Below are positions 9,715 through 52,195 of a DNA stretch of 64,000 bases, piece after piece. The position numbers and the translations under genes were made by a program. The stretch covers positions 1-64,000 of the forward strand of contig CAJFSS010000013.1 of assembly GCA_904419745.1 (NCBI GenBank). Direction: 5' to 3'. The DNA is from Candidatus Pseudoruminococcus merdavium. Lineage in GTDB: Bacteria; Bacillota; Clostridia; Oscillospirales; Ruminococcaceae. The notes below the pieces were generated by a model. That model was given only the letters and a program-made list of their open reading frames with translations. It did no database searches and was not told the origin of the DNA. How positions within the stretch are numbered: the stretch's first letter is position 1; every line of letters begins with the position of its first letter.

Positions 9715-12333
9715 TTAATGCTGGTGCTTAATCAGACCAAAGGCTTTTGAGATTTCCATAACGAGCAAAGGCACTAAAATCAAGCCCAAACCCAACAGAT
9801 AAAGCTGCCAGGGAAGCGTGATAAGGCCAAAGGCAATCCCGACTGGAGTAAAGAGCACCAGACATACCAGTACAATAGATGCCAATGCTGCCCAATTGAG
9901 TTTATGGTTGGTAAAAGGCCCGATTTTAAACAGGGAATGTTCAGAACGCATATTAAATGCCTGGACAATCTGGGTCAGGGACAATACCATAAAGGCCATA
10001 GTCTGTCCTCCGGCCAGGGTACCAGTGACATTTTCCCCAACAACAAACCCGATCAGGGTGAGGATGGCAAACATAAATCCCTGTAAAACCACACGAACTC
10101 CAAGGCCATGAGCAAAAATGCCTTCCTCCTTCGGTTTCGGCTTGCGATCCATCACATCAGATTCCACTGCTTCCATGCCCAAAGCAATTGCAGGCAGGGA
10201 ATCGGTCACCAGATTGATCCACAACAGCTGCATGGACAAAAGCGGCGTCTTATGCCACAGCAGCATGGCAACAAATACAGTGATAACCTCGCCAATATTT
10301 GTTCCCAGCAGGAAACCGACCACTTTTTTGATGTTGGCGTAAATCCCACGTCCTTCCCGAACGGCGTCTACAATGGTAGCAAAATTGTCATCCGTCAGGG
10401 TCATGTCTGCGGCGCCTTTTGCCACATCGGTTCCTGTAATCCCCATTGCGCAACCAATATCGGCGGCTTTCAATGCAGGGGCGTCGTTGACGCCGTCTCC
10501 GGTCATGGAAACCACCTGGCCCTTGCGCTGCCATGCTTTGACAATACGGATTTTATTTTCTGGCGATACGCGGGCATAGACAGAGATGTTTTCCACTTCC
10601 CCATCCAGTTGTTCATCGGTCATGGCGTCCAGTTCCGCCCCGGTAATGGCACGATCGCCGGACTGCATGATTCCAAGCTCTTTGGCAATCGCGGAAGCGG
10701 TCACCACATGATCTCCGGTAATCATTACCGGTTTGATACCGGCCTTCCGGCAAGTGGCAACAGCCGCCTTGGCCTCCGGACGAGGCGGATCAATCATACC
10801 GACCAGCCCCATCAAGGTCAAACCGTTTTCCAATTCCTCTGGAGTGGGATTTGCCGGGACAGTTTCTATCTCCTTATATCCAACCGCAAGTACGCGGAGA
10901 GCGTCGCGGCTCATTTTCTCGTTCATTTTTTTAGCGGCTTCCATATCCCCTGCAATACAGCGGGAAGCCATCACGTCAAATGCACCTTTGACAATGACAA
11001 GATTCCTGCCATCGATCTTGTTGACAGAAGTCATAAGCTTCCGGTCAGAATCAAATGGAATTTCTGCAACCCGGGGATAGGCCTGGTTCAACTGTTCTAA
11101 CTCCATCCCATTTTTATGGGCTGCCACAATGATAGAAGTCTCGGTTGGATCGCCGATATGTTGTTCCGTTCCATCGTCTCCAAATACTACCGAACCATCA
11201 CAACAAAGAGTACCATAGCGGAGAAGTTTTTTTGCCGCCTCAGAATTTTGGCTGCTGATTTGCTCCAGCTCGTCGGTACCATCCAGCCACACTTTGGTAA
11301 GAGTCATACGGTTTTGGGTGAGCGTGCCGGTTTTATCCGAGCAAATGACTGAGGCACTGCCCAGGGTTTCCACTGCGGGCAAGCGGCGGATCAGGGCGTT
11401 TTTCTTCACCATCCGCTGTACGCCGATGGCAAGGACAATGGTGACAATGGCAGGCAGTCCTTCCGGAATTGCAGAAACAGCCAGGGAAACCGCCGTCATA
11501 AAGATTTCCAGTACATCGATGCCGTTTATCAGACCAACCACAAAGATGATCGCGCAGGCGATCAGGGCAAGGATTCCTAAATATTTGCCAAGTTGGGCCA
11601 GTTTTTTCTGCAAAGGAGTCTGTCCTTCATTTTCCCCTTCCAGCAGCCCGGCAATTTTGCCCATCTCGGTATTCATTCCAGTACCCGTGACAACGGCGGT
11701 GGCGGTACCATAGGTGATACTGCACCCGGAAAACACCATATTACTCCGGTCGCCCAGGGGGGCCTTCTCGTCCACAATTGCTTGTGCATCTTTTTCCGAA
11801 GAAACGGATTCCCCGGTCAAAGCCGACTCTTCGCTTTTTAAGCTGGCGCTTTTGAGCAGGCGTGCGTCTGCGGGAATAAAGTCCCCAGCTTCCAAGCGGA
11901 TGATATCACCCGGCACAAGCCCCGCTGCGTCAATAACACTTTCCGTTCCGTCACGCAAAACCCTGGCACGGGGAGCAGACATGTTTTTCAAGGCGTCCAA
12001 CGCCTTTTCCGCCTTGCTTTCCTGCACCATACCCATTACAGCGTTGAGCACTACAATGAGCAGAATGAGCACGGGCTCAAAAAATTCCATTGCATCTCCT
12101 TCAACGCAGGCGATGACAAAGGAGACAACAGCGGCAACCAGCAGGATGATGATCATGACGTCCTTGAACTGTTCCAAAAACCGCTGGAGATTTGTTTTTT
12201 TCTTTTTCTCATCTAATTTGTTTTCGCCGTACTGTTGAAAACGCCGGGCAGCCTGTTGACTGCTAAGTCCCTTTTCCAGCGAAGTCTGTAGGCCGCTTAA
12301 AAGTTCGGCCTGCGGTTTCACATGGGGTATCAA
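9715..12333 (-). CDS. Calcium-transporting P-type ATPase
   Basis: This 872-residue P2-type ATPase exports Ca2+ across the cytoplasmic membrane. LTGES (172-176) is the actuator loop, PEGL (290-293) the M4 ion-site motif, DKTGTLTQ (333-340) holds the phosphorylated Asp333, and TGDGVNDAP is the hinge. NIGEV in M5 and WINLVTDSLPAIALG in M6 keep the Asn, Glu, Thr and Asp residues that bind Ca2+ in SERCA, so the ion assignment is good. The start is TTG, with GGAGG 8 bp upstream; no ATG fits. It is divergent from a TetR gene with palindromes between them. Confidence 0.92.
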   Translation of the reverse strand: MIPHVKPQAELLSGLQTSLEKGLSSQQAARRFQQYGENKLDEKKKKTNLQRFLEQFKDVMIIILLVAAVVSFVIACVEGDAMEFFEPVLILLIVVLNAVMGMVQESKAEKALDALKNMSAPRARVLRDGTESVIDAAGLVPGDIIRLEAGDFIPADARLLKSASLKSEESALTGESVSSEKDAQAIVDEKAPLGDRSNMVFSGCSITYGTATAVVTGTGMNTEMGKIAGLLEGENEGQTPLQKKLAQLGKYLGILALIACAIIFVVGLINGIDVLEIFMTAVSLAVSAIPEGLPAIVTIVLAIGVQRMVKKNALIRRLPAVETLGSASVICSDKTGTLTQNRMTLTKVWLDGTDELEQISSQNSEAAKKLLRYGTLCCDGSVVFGDDGTEQHIGDPTETSIIVAAHKNGMELEQLNQAYPRVAEIPFDSDRKLMTSVNKIDGRNLVIVKGAFDVMASRCIAGDMEAAKKMNEKMSRDALRVLAVGYKEIETVPANPTPEELENGLTLMGLVGMIDPPRPEAKAAVATCRKAGIKPVMITGDHVVTASAIAKELGIMQSGDRAITGAELDAMTDEQLDGEVENISVYARVSPENKIRIVKAWQRKGQVVSMTGDGVNDAPALKAADIGCAMGITGTDVAKGAADMTLTDDNFATIVDAVREGRGIYANIKKVVGFLLGTNIGEVITVFVAMLLWHKTPLLSMQLLWINLVTDSLPAIALGMEAVESDVMDRKPKPKEEGIFAHGLGVRVVLQGFMFAILTLIGFVVGENVTGTLAGGQTMAFMVLSLTQIVQAFNMRSEHSLFKIGPFTNHKLNWAALASIVLVCLVLFTPVGIAFGLITLPWQLYLLGLGLILVPLLVMEISKAFGLIKHQH

Positions 12334-12346
12334 ATAAAATTCCTCC

Positions 12347-12483
12347 TGTCATTGGATTTTGGATTATAGTATTATTGTATCAGCGCGCCGGCTCTTTGTC
12401 ATTGGACAAAAAAACAAGGTGTCAGAATTTTGCTCGTTCATGAAAAATTGTTACTTTTTTGGACACTTCGGCCAATTTGTCCC
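12347..12483. promoter_or_regulatory. Divergent ATPase/TetR control region with repeats
   Basis: TGTCATTGGA occurs twice (12347-12356 and 12397-12406). The second copy lies in the palindrome TTGTC-ATTG-GACAA (12396-12409). A further GGACA (12461-12465) / TGTCC (12479-12483) repeat lies nearer the TetR gene. These are candidate operators for the divergent pair. Confidence 0.5.
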
Positions 12484-12576
12484 CAAAATATCATGGAAAA
12501 AACGCGGATTATTTTGTTGATTTCTGCTAATTTTTATGATATACTTGGGATATTCCTATGGTTTGGAGGTGGGACT

Positions 12577-13191
12577 TTGCCAGATTCCAATATCACCAAG
12601 CGCGCTTTGGCTTCCTCTCTAAAGAAACTGATGGAAGCAAAACCCCTGTCCAAGATCAGCGTCAGCGATATCTGCGAGGCTTGCGACATGAACCGCAAAA
12701 GCTTTTATTATCATTTCAAGGACAAATATGATCTCGTAAACTGGATTTATCGCAACGAATTTATTATGGTTGCAACGCAAAAAGAACAGAAAACCGGGTG
12801 GGATTTGTTAGAAGATCTGTGTATCTATTTCTATGAGAACCACAATTTTTATAAAAAGCTATTAAATGTCGATGGCCAAAATTCCTTTTCCGAGTATTTC
12901 TGGGATATCGTAGTGACAATTCTGTCGGACGATATGGAAGAAATTTTTGGCCGCGATGAAAATTTTGACTTTTATGTTAATTTTTATTCAGATGCATTTG
13001 TCTGTGCAATGAAACGCTGGCTGCTGGAAAAAGATTGTATGCCAGCGGAAGAATTTACCCATTTGCTGAAAAATTGTCTCTTGGGAACATCAAATAAAAT
13101 CATTCAAATGTTATCGCCGGAACCGGCGGCGGACGGACAGGAGACTACCAGCATGGTCAGTGGAACTCCATACAAGGGCAAAAACCCGTGA
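12577..13191 (+). CDS. TetR family regulator, DhaS-like (TetR_C_7 type)
   Basis: Starting at the TTG at 12577, preceded by GGAGGT with 6-bp spacing, gives 204 residues. The N-terminus has a TetR helix-turn-helix (ITKRALASSLKKLME, then ISVSDICEACDMNRKSFYYH, then FKDKYDLVNWI). The C-terminus resembles the family with DhaS-like domains, which can act as activators or repressors. A longer frame back to 12430 lacks a ribosome site. It is divergent from the Ca2+-ATPase and probably controls that intergenic region. Confidence 0.85.
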   Translation: MPDSNITKRALASSLKKLMEAKPLSKISVSDICEACDMNRKSFYYHFKDKYDLVNWIYRNEFIMVATQKEQKTGWDLLEDLCIYFYENHNFYKKLLNVDGQNSFSEYFWDIVVTILSDDMEEIFGRDENFDFYVNFYSDAFVCAMKRWLLEKDCMPAEEFTHLLKNCLLGTSNKIIQMLSPEPAADGQETTSMVSGTPYKGKNP

Positions 13192-13286
13192 TCCCGTCCG
13201 TTTTTTTCAATTTAGGCAGTTGGCAAACCGTAATCTCGATTGTGTTAAGAGAAGTATTTATTTCCTGCTCGCCGCTCAAGCTTTGA

Positions 13287-13316
13287 AAAACTCCCGGCAG
13301 TGCCGGGAGTTTTTTG
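13287..13316 (+). terminator. Terminator after TetR gene
   Basis: AAAACTCCCGGCA and GCCGGGAGTTTTTT form a tight GC-rich stem with a T-run. Confidence 0.85.
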
Positions 13317-13419
13317 ACAAATGGAACAGAATATATACCGGCCCGAACCCTTTTCCATAGTATCGGCGTCTTAGTGATCCTATCCGCAAAATTTTAAAAG
13401 ATACTGGGACATTGCAAGA

Positions 13420-14376
13420 TTATTTTTCAAGCTTTGCAATGGTAAACAACTCGATAAAATCATCCGCCCAGAGGGTACGGGTCAAATAGAGTACCACTCC
13501 GTTATAAGGAGCGGTATAACGCTCCAGCTCCTTCCCCCAATAATCCCGGACAACCCCTATCGGCTGTCCGTATCGCACAAAATCCCCTGCCTGCACCTGT
13601 GGGTACCAGAGCCCGGGGGTATTCGGTTTCTGGTAGAGCACTTCCGTAACAAGTTTTGGAACCTGGGACTGCCGTGGTGCATGATCGAGCATTCCCAAAT
13701 GGGCCAGTACCCGCCGGACATCCTGTATATCTTCCTCCACTTCCTGTGGGGTCCATGTCCCGGCACAGCCGCGTTCCAACAACAGGGAGGGTACACCCAT
13801 AATCCCCGCATAATTATAGGCTCCTGTCTTTGCCAGGGAACGCACCATATAGGGGACGTTGATGCATTGCGCCGCTTTTTTCGCGCGCTCTTCCACCTCT
13901 TTGGAACCAGCCGCGCCAAAATAGACATAGGGCGAGAGGTTTTCGAAAATTTCTCCACCGTGTAAATCCAGATAAAAATCGAGTTTGGGATAAATTTCGG
14001 TCACAAAGAAATGGGCAAGCCGCTGGCTTTCACTCCCCTGTTCTGAACCCGGAAACTCCCGGTTTAGATTCCGCCCATCCGTTGGCACCAGGGAAGCGGT
14101 GCGCGCTTGGAATCCCACCGGATTAACCGGATGAAGCAGCAAAAGGGCGCCATGTATCTCCTGAGGGGTCAACTGCTGGGAAAGGGCGACCGCCGCCTGT
14201 ATTCCCACATATTCACAGCTATGGATTCCCCCGCTTACCAATACAGTGGGGCCGTCTGTCCGGCCGCAAATCAAGGTTGCGGGGATGGAAAAAGAAACCT
14301 CCGGAACTTGCAGCCATTCCCGGACTATTTGCCCTGCGCCAGCTGATAAATTCCCAAACGAAACGGTTTTGTCCAT
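13420..14376 (-). CDS. Succinylglutamate desuccinylase/aspartoacylase-type zinc hydrolase (M14 fold)
   Basis: This 318-residue enzyme has the AstE/AspA-type zinc site: His52 and Glu55 in GGIHSCEYVG and His139 in DLDLHGG-like FYLDLHGGE. GRNLNREFPG (101-110) gives the substrate-binding Arg/Asn pair. The C-terminal ~90 residues form a beta domain common in this group. Substrates are probably N-acyl amino acids or peptides. The start at 14376 is preceded by GGAGGAGAG; an ATG 12 codons upstream is less suitable. It stands apart from the M20/M32 group by the PadR pair. Confidence 0.82.
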   Translation of the reverse strand: MDKTVSFGNLSAGAGQIVREWLQVPEVSFSIPATLICGRTDGPTVLVSGGIHSCEYVGIQAAVALSQQLTPQEIHGALLLLHPVNPVGFQARTASLVPTDGRNLNREFPGSEQGSESQRLAHFFVTEIYPKLDFYLDLHGGEIFENLSPYVYFGAAGSKEVEERAKKAAQCINVPYMVRSLAKTGAYNYAGIMGVPSLLLERGCAGTWTPQEVEEDIQDVRRVLAHLGMLDHAPRQSQVPKLVTEVLYQKPNTPGLWYPQVQAGDFVRYGQPIGVVRDYWGKELERYTAPYNGVVLYLTRTLWADDFIELFTIAKLEK

Positions 14377-50685: not shown

Positions 50686-50761
50686 GGGGGCGTAGCTCAG
50701 CTGGGAGAGCGTTTGACTGGCAGTCAAGAGGTCATGGGTTCGATCCCCACCGTCTCCACCA
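50686..50761 (+). tRNA. tRNA-Ala (anticodon GGC)
   Basis: GGGGGCG pairs with CGTCTCC; the anticodon stem TTTGA/TCAAG holds loop CTGGCAG (GGC). The T-arm ATGGGTTCGATCCCCAC and encoded CCA complete the tRNA. Confidence 0.93.
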
Positions 50762-50792
50762 AGTCAGAGCAAAGTTCGCTTTGCTCTGACTT
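50761..50792 (+). terminator. Terminator of tRNA-Ala
   Basis: AAGTCAGAGCAAAG-TTCG-CTTTGCTCTGACTT followed by ATTTTTTT. Confidence 0.92.
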
Positions 50793-51250
50793 ATTTTTTT
50801 GTCTACGACAGAAAAAATAAGTCATCCGCCCGCACCCTTACTCCTCCTCTTTCGCAAAAAGTCACGCTCGGCTCACCTGTTCGGTTGTAAACTCCCTCAC
50901 CATGGCTCGCTGTCGCTGCCAACTTTTTGCGAGTTCGAGAGTTCAACTCCCACCTCCGAAAACGCAAAAATATCTTTTTCATGTGGCTTAGACGCAACGA
51001 ATAAATCCGAACCTTGCGCCGGTTGGCGACGGGTTCGGATTTATTGTTGTTGTGTTTTTATATTTGTAAGATTAATCATATCTCCCGTATCTTTTTTAAA
51101 AGGAATTACTGCTAAGAAACCGCTGCCCTCGCACCATAAAGCATGGTATAATTTACAAAAGCCAAAACGCAAATTACATGCGTGTATTTAGAAAAGGGAT
51201 GTTTTTTGCATTAGAACAGAATTACAGGTACTATTAAGGAGGGAAATTTG
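50793..51250. other. Intergenic stretch beside tRNA-Ala with a strong hairpin
   Basis: AATAAATCCGAACC (51000-51013) and GGTTCGGATTTATT (51032-51045) form a 14-bp stem. A possible -10 TATAAT (51147-51152) for the following gene overlaps ACCAT-AAAGC-ATGGT (51133-51147). No gene is supported. At 50949-50968 the sequence mildly resembles the tRNA T-arm end, possibly an old attachment site. Confidence 0.45.
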
Positions 51251-52195
51251 ATGAAAACACGTTTGATAATATTCTCATCGGTAAAGGAACTGAAGTTAGC
51301 GGAAGCAATACAGCGGAACCTTTATCATAAAGATTACGCAGTAAAAATATGGACAAACGGTTTTTTTAAACTATCCAAATCCTATATTTCTCATTTTTCA
51401 AATATTAGAACCGACTATGACTATGCTGTTGTTTTATGTAGTGATGACGATCTAGTGAAAAAGAAAGGGGCACGAAAATATATTCCAAGGGACAATGTGT
51501 TACTTGAATTAGGAATGTGTATTAGCGAATTTTCTTTGGAACATGTTATGATTGTAAAAAAAGATACTATTTCTCTACCGACAGATTTAGACGGAATAGA
51601 GTCTATTTGTTATAATATGGAAAAAGATGACGACCTGGATACAATTGCAGGCATGATTTGTTCAAGTATTATGAATCATATTTCCAAGCATACGAATCAA
51701 GGATATATAAAATTATCTTGGGATGAATACTTTTATCATTTGAATAATTTAATAGATACATTAAAACAATCATCCGGATTGGGAGGATTCTATTTTGATA
51801 TTATAATTGGTATCAATCGGGGCGGGTTAATGGTTGCGGATTTAATTTCCAGAGAATTTGGACAAAATATACCTATTTTAGCAATATATGCAGACAGAAG
51901 AACAGGAAAAGCCGTTTTTGACTCAACTGATTTATTGATTAGTAATAAAGATATCTTGAAAATACTACAAAACGACAGAATTAAACATATTTTATTAACC
52001 GACAGCTTTACTCGAGATGGAGTTACTATTATTGAAGCCAAAAAATATCTAACCCAAAATCTAAATTCTAAAGTGATTAAATCCGCTGTAATATATGCTA
52101 ATCGTAGACTGGAAAATACCAAAGCATTAAAAAGTATTGACTACATTGCATCGTTTCAAGATCTGGATAATAAAAAGTTATCCTTGACATTCTAA
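51251..52195 (+). CDS. TIR-like domain fused to phosphoribosyltransferase
   Basis: This 314-residue protein has two parts. Residues 1-145 match the TIR-like nucleotide-binding family (PF10137, CAP12/PCTIR type): YDYAVVLCSDDDLV, then YIPRDNVLLELGMCISEF with Glu86 at the place of the TIR catalytic glutamate. Residues 155-314 form a type I phosphoribosyltransferase fold: IIIGINRGGLMVADLI and a PRPP-loop-like ILLTDSFTRDGVTIIEA. TIR domains of this kind cleave NAD+ in bacterial defence; the attached domain could sense or process phosphoribosyl products. AAGGAGGG precedes the ATG at 51251. The gene is markedly AT-rich and lies beside tRNA-Ala, so it was probably acquired. Function is inferred. Confidence 0.75.
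   Translation: MKTRLIIFSSVKELKLAEAIQRNLYHKDYAVKIWTNGFFKLSKSYISHFSNIRTDYDYAVVLCSDDDLVKKKGARKYIPRDNVLLELGMCISEFSLEHVMIVKKDTISLPTDLDGIESICYNMEKDDDLDTIAGMICSSIMNHISKHTNQGYIKLSWDEYFYHLNNLIDTLKQSSGLGGFYFDIIIGINRGGLMVADLISREFGQNIPILAIYADRRTGKAVFDSTDLLISNKDILKILQNDRIKHILLTDSFTRDGVTIIEAKKYLTQNLNSKVIKSAVIYANRRLENTKALKSIDYIASFQDLDNKKLSLTF

Follow-up and report, generated by a model that had tools for sequence, protein, structure and literature searches.

What does a phosphoribosyltransferase (PRTase) fold do when it is joined to a TIR domain of the kind present in anti-phage effectors? This question is raised by a gene located on a 64,000-nt stretch of DNA, analysed as a whole and referred to here as the window. 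CAP12-type TIR effectors are known to respond to cyclic nucleotides that are made by a partner synthase. The gene encodes a putative TIR effector of the CAP12 type, and the domain in its sensor position has not been described there. According to the initial annotation no characterised system with exactly this fusion was known, and in the literature searched we likewise found no characterised equivalent and no name for a TIR-PRTase protein.

The fusion gene and its setting

The open reading frame was recovered exactly at the position initially annotated, and an AGGAGG sequence is located a few bases before its start codon (Table 1). Its description as an AT-rich gene downstream of tRNA-Ala holds as well: its G+C content is 31%, versus 46.5% for the window. 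The gene is solitary, being flanked by tRNA-Ala on one side and a gene for a MerR/TipAS regulator on the other, with chromate transporter genes and the IleRS gene further out, and no flanking gene resembles a partner. No defence island was found in the window and no convincing att repeat flanks the fusion gene there. In a synteny check within the family, the loci around the nearest MerR homologues lacked the tRNA. Furthermore, no match to SMODS CD-NTases (PF18144) was obtained anywhere in the source genome, nor among the gene neighbours.

A dispersed repeat of ~140 bp is located immediately 3' of tRNA-Ala (window positions 50844-50981). Copies are present on contigs C6 (87% identity, adjoining the tmRNA gene) and C2 (85%), and the repeat may have a preference for the 3' ends of tRNA-like genes.

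Table 1. Features of the fusion gene and its upstream region (window positions; residues are those of the fusion protein)
Feature	Positions	Strand	Basis
tRNA-Ala (GGC), upstream of the fusion gene	50686..50761	+	
Strong terminator-like hairpin after tRNA-Ala	50761-50792		
Ribosome-binding site AAGGAGG before ATG 51251	51236..51242	+	sequence
Alternative start TTG, in frame	51248	+	sequence
TIR-PRTase fusion gene, 314 aa	51251..52195 (stop included)	+	ORF, Pfam, AlphaFold2
CAP12/Pycsar-type TIR domain, residues 1-147; W34, F39, D66-D67, R80-D81-N82, E86	51251..51691	+	
Type I PRTase-fold domain, Gpt/HGXPRT type, residues 152-314	51704..52192	+	
PPi loop IGINRGG, residues 186-192; G-x-x-R-G-G in 3/3 homologues	51806..51826	+	
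ADRR motif, residues 214-217; ADR invariant in the three fusions	51890..51901	+	
Divergent PRPP loop D251-S-F-T-R255-D-G257-V-T259, aligned with PurR DDFMKAGGT	52001..52027	+	

A TIR domain and a PRTase fold in one rare architecture

The N-terminal half had been assigned to the TIR-like PF10137/CAP12 family, and two results bear this out. Firstly, residues 1-145 contain a significant Pfam match to PF10137 (residues 6-121, E 5.7e-24, 84.9 bits against a curated cut-off of 24.7). Secondly, in the AlphaFold2 model, which consists of two confident domains (mean pLDDT 86.6), the predicted TIR domain (residues 2-154) can be superimposed on that of SfSTING (7un8; Z 17.5, rmsd 2.1, 132 residues aligned). 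PADLOC groups this half with the TIR effectors of CBASS and Pycsar systems. The NCBIfam Cap12 models match residues 1-146 only, with a score of 76 bits versus a cut-off of 450, and the fusion is thus not an ordinary TIR-STING protein. The alignment with ElSTING (9lmq) is ungapped over the active-site region, and W34, F39 and E86 fall on residues having the same numbers. In ElSTING, the catalytic residue E86 is indispensable, and the ribose and the nicotinamide are believed to be bound by W34 and F39 (PMC12421889). The motif PRDNVLLELG is located at residues 79-88, as annotated, and W34, D67, R80-D81-N82, E86 and G88 are invariant among 60 relatives, with F39 being nearly so. As judged from these alignments, the NADase residues of the TIR domain are intact.

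That this domain is fused to a PRTase, as initially proposed, is supported both by the two-domain model and by a second Pfam match above its cut-off, PF00156 at residues 166-288 (E 2.5e-9, 37.1 bits versus 26.3). Single-sequence first scans of the GTDB and IMG/VR collections, which may leave out records of the window's own genome, gave no relatives. Alignment-based scans yielded 532 TIR relatives on GTDB contigs, among the best 80 of which only one, from Planctomycetales ZRK34 (locus L025), reaches through the PRTase, and 33 relatives in IMG/VR, with a prophage protein (L105) as the sole full-length one. The L105 protein shares 49% identity over its full length (E 9e-92) with the window protein, and the ZRK34 protein about 30%. 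No further fusion members were found in three more viral scans, nor, beyond the known members, in 100 relatives, 391 genomes of the class and 294 of Planctomycetota. Among 113 PF10137 proteins, the partner domains are of a sensor-like kind: cNMP-binding in 50, TPR in about 11, a macro domain in one and PRTase in 3; two of these three PRTase fusions pass an E-value of 0.001 in Pfam, and L105 is weak in Pfam and clear with a family profile. Identity to the window protein, by half, is 49.3% (TIR) and 50.3% (PRTase) for L105, and 31.5% and 35.8% for ZRK34, and codon conservation is 72% at position 2 versus 41% at position 3. Since the PRTase half is conserved at least as well as the TIR half, and position 2 better than position 3, it is likely that both halves are under joint selection. 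The TIR-PRTase architecture is real, conserved and rare.

Apparent standalone relatives of the PRTase half in two genomes of the phylum (L013, L014) and in one phage, Tenacibaculum phage PTm1 (L016), had been matched by chance, the proteins in question being a type II secretion-like protein, a sulfatase-like protein and a DNA methyltransferase. A Sphingobium candidate (L015) is a separate, weak PRTase adjoining LOG-family and adenosine deaminase genes. In the genomes of the class, the PRTase half gave weak PRTase matches only, mostly to open frames having the length of ordinary salvage enzymes. Two observations concern other TIR proteins. The PF10137 protein with a macro domain, which is of the Thoeris ThsA type (E 1.6e-6), has it in one chain with the TIR and is possibly another unusual TIR fusion, and a TIR-TPR gene on a Leptospira interrogans plasmid (L017, 2439-4437) is located shortly after a gene for a putative phage abortive infection protein.

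The two homologues do not reside in salvage operons: the L105 gene is located at a prophage end, and the ZRK34 gene in a defence-like region. The former follows tail, endolysin and holin genes and precedes a truncated tRNA 3' end, which we read as an attachment site. It looks like a cargo gene, because its G+C content is 35% within a phage of 56%. The ZRK34 gene heads three tightly packed genes, separated by a 1-base gap and then an overlap; those directly following it encode a CDP-alcohol phosphatidyltransferase and a HAD phosphatase (L025, 8944-10475). Near this operon are a ThiF-JAB fusion gene with a PADLOC E1-E2 match and a gene for a CapH-like regulator (11105-13703), which suggests a wider defence island. 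Partner genes of the ZRK34 type are absent from the window and L105 loci. It should be noted that, with only three members known, the context statistics are weak.

It might be argued that the fusion is a housekeeping or stress protein, whose TIR-like part would bind nucleotides but not act as an NADase, and whose PRTase would serve purine salvage. Most PRTases are salvage enzymes, and in the window the neighbours of the gene (chromate transporter, MerR/TipAS, IleRS) are housekeeping genes. However, every NADase residue is intact, the gene has a foreign, AT-rich composition, a homologue is carried by a prophage, and the source genome encodes seven further PRTases besides the fusion. Moreover, the fusion was absent from all other genomes of the family and class that were searched, showing that it is not a core gene. 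A salvage role is unlikely, and we give this explanation as a whole very little credence.

Possible roles of the PRTase-fold domain

The predicted structure of residues 150-314 has a purine-PRTase fold, with Sulfolobus solfataricus HGXPRT (5bqo; Z 16.7, rmsd 2.4, 137 residues aligned), Helicobacter pylori XGHPRT (Z 16.4) and Escherichia coli XPRT (Z 13.6) among its matches. One of the better ones is a Neisseria PRTase solved with ppGpp (5vog, Z 14.4). A profile of the three fusions matches SsoGpt-1 (4trb) with an E-value of 1.2e-7. The domain had been described as a complete-looking type I PRTase. The type I fold and a normal GINRGG PPi loop, with its RGG intact, stand, but "complete-looking" was an overstatement, because the PRPP loop, TDSFTRDGVT, is divergent. 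The loop reads DDITDTGDS in SsoGpt-1 versus DSFTRDGVT in the window protein, DSFSRKGRT in L105 and DDISRRGQT in ZRK34, giving the pattern D-[SD]-[FI]-[ST]-R-x-G-x-T in all three homologues. The Asp of DTGxT is replaced by Arg in every fusion and the Thr by Asp, Lys or Arg (the Asp of the window protein not being ideal for phosphate binding), and the hood Lys of the SsoGpt-1 "YIKP" segment by Asn, Asp or His.

As far as sequence comparison goes, the loop resembles that of the non-catalytic sensor PurR, the nearest counterpart that we found, more closely than those of DDxxDTGxT purine PRTases. D251, F253, R255, G257 and T259 correspond to D203, F205, K207, G209 and T211 of the PurR loop DDFMKAGGT, which we confirmed in the PDB sequence; the Phe is Ile in ZRK34, and the fusion family agrees with PurR at four or five of the positions that contact the ligand. 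The PRT domain of Bacillus subtilis PurR is enzymatically inactive and binds PRPP and (p)ppGpp in competition; F205, G209, G210 and T211 are nearly universal, with Lys or Arg at position 207 (PMC8789054). The N-terminal DNA-binding domain of PurR (PF09182) has no Pfam match in the fusion protein, whose N-terminus is TIR. We regard the PurR-like loop as a lead towards a regulatory domain, short of proof that catalysis has been lost. Enzymes can stay functional without the DTG loop, and its degeneration therefore does not prove the loss of activity.

This brings us to the main rival explanation, which is that the PRTase is active. A PRPP-dependent change of a small molecule or base would then make or remove the signal gating the TIR domain, or the enzyme would process TIR products (nicotinamide, ADP-ribose). 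Neither the GxxRGG of the PPi loop nor D251, the first acidic residue, varies among the fusions, and the ZRK34 loop, nearer to canonical because of its Ile for F253 and Asp for S252, retains both acidic residues. The best support comes from the phosphatidyltransferase and HAD-phosphatase genes close behind the ZRK34 gene, which hint that the system of this lineage carries out some chemistry and does not only sense. Furthermore, PRTases do occur in defence, since E. coli is protected against T7 and lambda by a DprA and PRTase pair of P2-like phages (Rousset et al. 2022, PMC9122126). On the other hand, the DTGxT and hood residues are replaced in all three fusions, and no partner genes of the ZRK34 type accompany the two closest members. 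We consider an active PRTase doubtful. Recycling of nicotinamide, one of the three roles initially suggested, is poorly supported, given the type I purine-type fold and a PRPP loop without the usual residues; in NadV, the nicotinamide PRTase of phages, the catalytic domain is a TIM barrel (PMC9503650).

The second rival is that the PRTase-fold domain is a bait which triggers the TIR domain through direct recognition of a phage protein, its nucleotide pocket being a relic. Single-gene TIR systems that are set off by phage proteins are known, such as SpbK, a B. subtilis TIR protein that interacts with YonE of SPbeta (PMC12847820); in addition, TPR, a common protein-binding module, occupies the PRTase position in several PF10137 relatives. 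However, the pocket residues R190-G191-G192, D251, R255, G257 and T259 are common to all three homologues, and a bait acting only through its surface would need none of them. We regard a bait as improbable.

The remaining role suggested initially, a PRTase standing in for a sensing domain, has the best support of the three and is the most economical. The initial interpretation stands as regards the TIR family, the fusion itself and, in the literature searched, the absence of a characterised equivalent; its support is poor as regards nicotinamide recycling. Based on the lone AT-rich gene, the intact-looking TIR and the changed PRPP loop, the product is probably a one-gene phage-defence protein sensing a nucleotide-like signal. 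More specifically, there is in our estimate an even chance that it is a single-gene, NAD+-depleting abortive-infection effector in which the PRTase-fold domain would be the ligand sensor. This sensor reading draws on the domain identities, the intact NADase residues, the conservation of both halves in a three-member family, the PurR-like loop, the absence of a partner-like flanking gene in the window and the prophage location of one homologue. Counting against it are the nearer-canonical loop of ZRK34, the Asp that takes the place of the loop Thr in the window protein, and the fact that the window contains no defence island.

The NADase activity, ligand, oligomerisation and defence role that we infer for the fusion protein would fit together as follows. 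The CAP12-type TIR would be inactive at rest. The PRTase-fold domain, in the slot occupied in relatives by STING, cNMP-binding or TPR sensors, would use its PPi/PRPP pocket to hold a nucleotide-like ligand that is phosphorylated, with PRPP or (p)ppGpp, as in PurR, being the leading candidates. Phage infection would alter this ligand, upon which the protein would oligomerise and assemble composite TIR active sites; hydrolysis of NAD+ via E86 would then lead to growth stop or cell death before phage maturation. There is a precedent in TIR-STING, in which filament formation driven by ligand activates NAD+ cleavage (PMC8748872). That the repurposed fold senses PRPP, or else an alarmone resembling (p)ppGpp, and gates the TIR NADase directly, with no dedicated second-messenger synthase, is a more tentative proposal. 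A PRTase-fold relative with no visible partner in two of the three contexts suggests that immunity may read a housekeeping metabolite or alarmone directly. If true, the disturbance of nucleotide pools by a phage would be coupled to NAD+ depletion without such a synthase.

Comparison with known systems

Cap12 TIR-STING proteins (SfSTING 7un8, ElSTING 9lmq) share with the fusion the TIR subfamily and fold (Z 17.5), the catalytic Glu, the BB-loop Trp/Phe, a comparable length and the order of TIR followed by a ligand domain. That domain, however, is STING there and a PRTase fold here (residues 150-314), and the source genome has no SMODS CD-NTase match. PycTIR of Pycsar (8jsj) likewise combines a TIR of this subfamily with one sensor domain, but its cNMP-binding domain is N-terminal and it has a partner cyclase, whereas the fusion has the reverse order, another domain and no adjoining cyclase. 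The DprA and PRTase system, compared by description, also places a PRTase in a phage-carried anti-phage system, but consists of two separate genes without TIR, and no dprA adjoins the fusion gene. Gpt-type purine PRTases (SsoGpt-1 4trb, HGXPRT 5bqo, E. coli XPRT) have the same fold (Z 13-17), RGG PPi loop and first loop Asp, whereas the fusion has RxGxT instead of DTGxT, no hood Lys and an attached TIR. Finally, B. subtilis PurR also employs a type I PRTase fold in regulation, and its DDFMKAGGT loop is similar to DSFTRDGVT at D, F, K/R, G and T. The output of PurR, however, is a DNA-binding domain that represses purine genes, whereas that of the fusion is a TIR domain of the NADase type.
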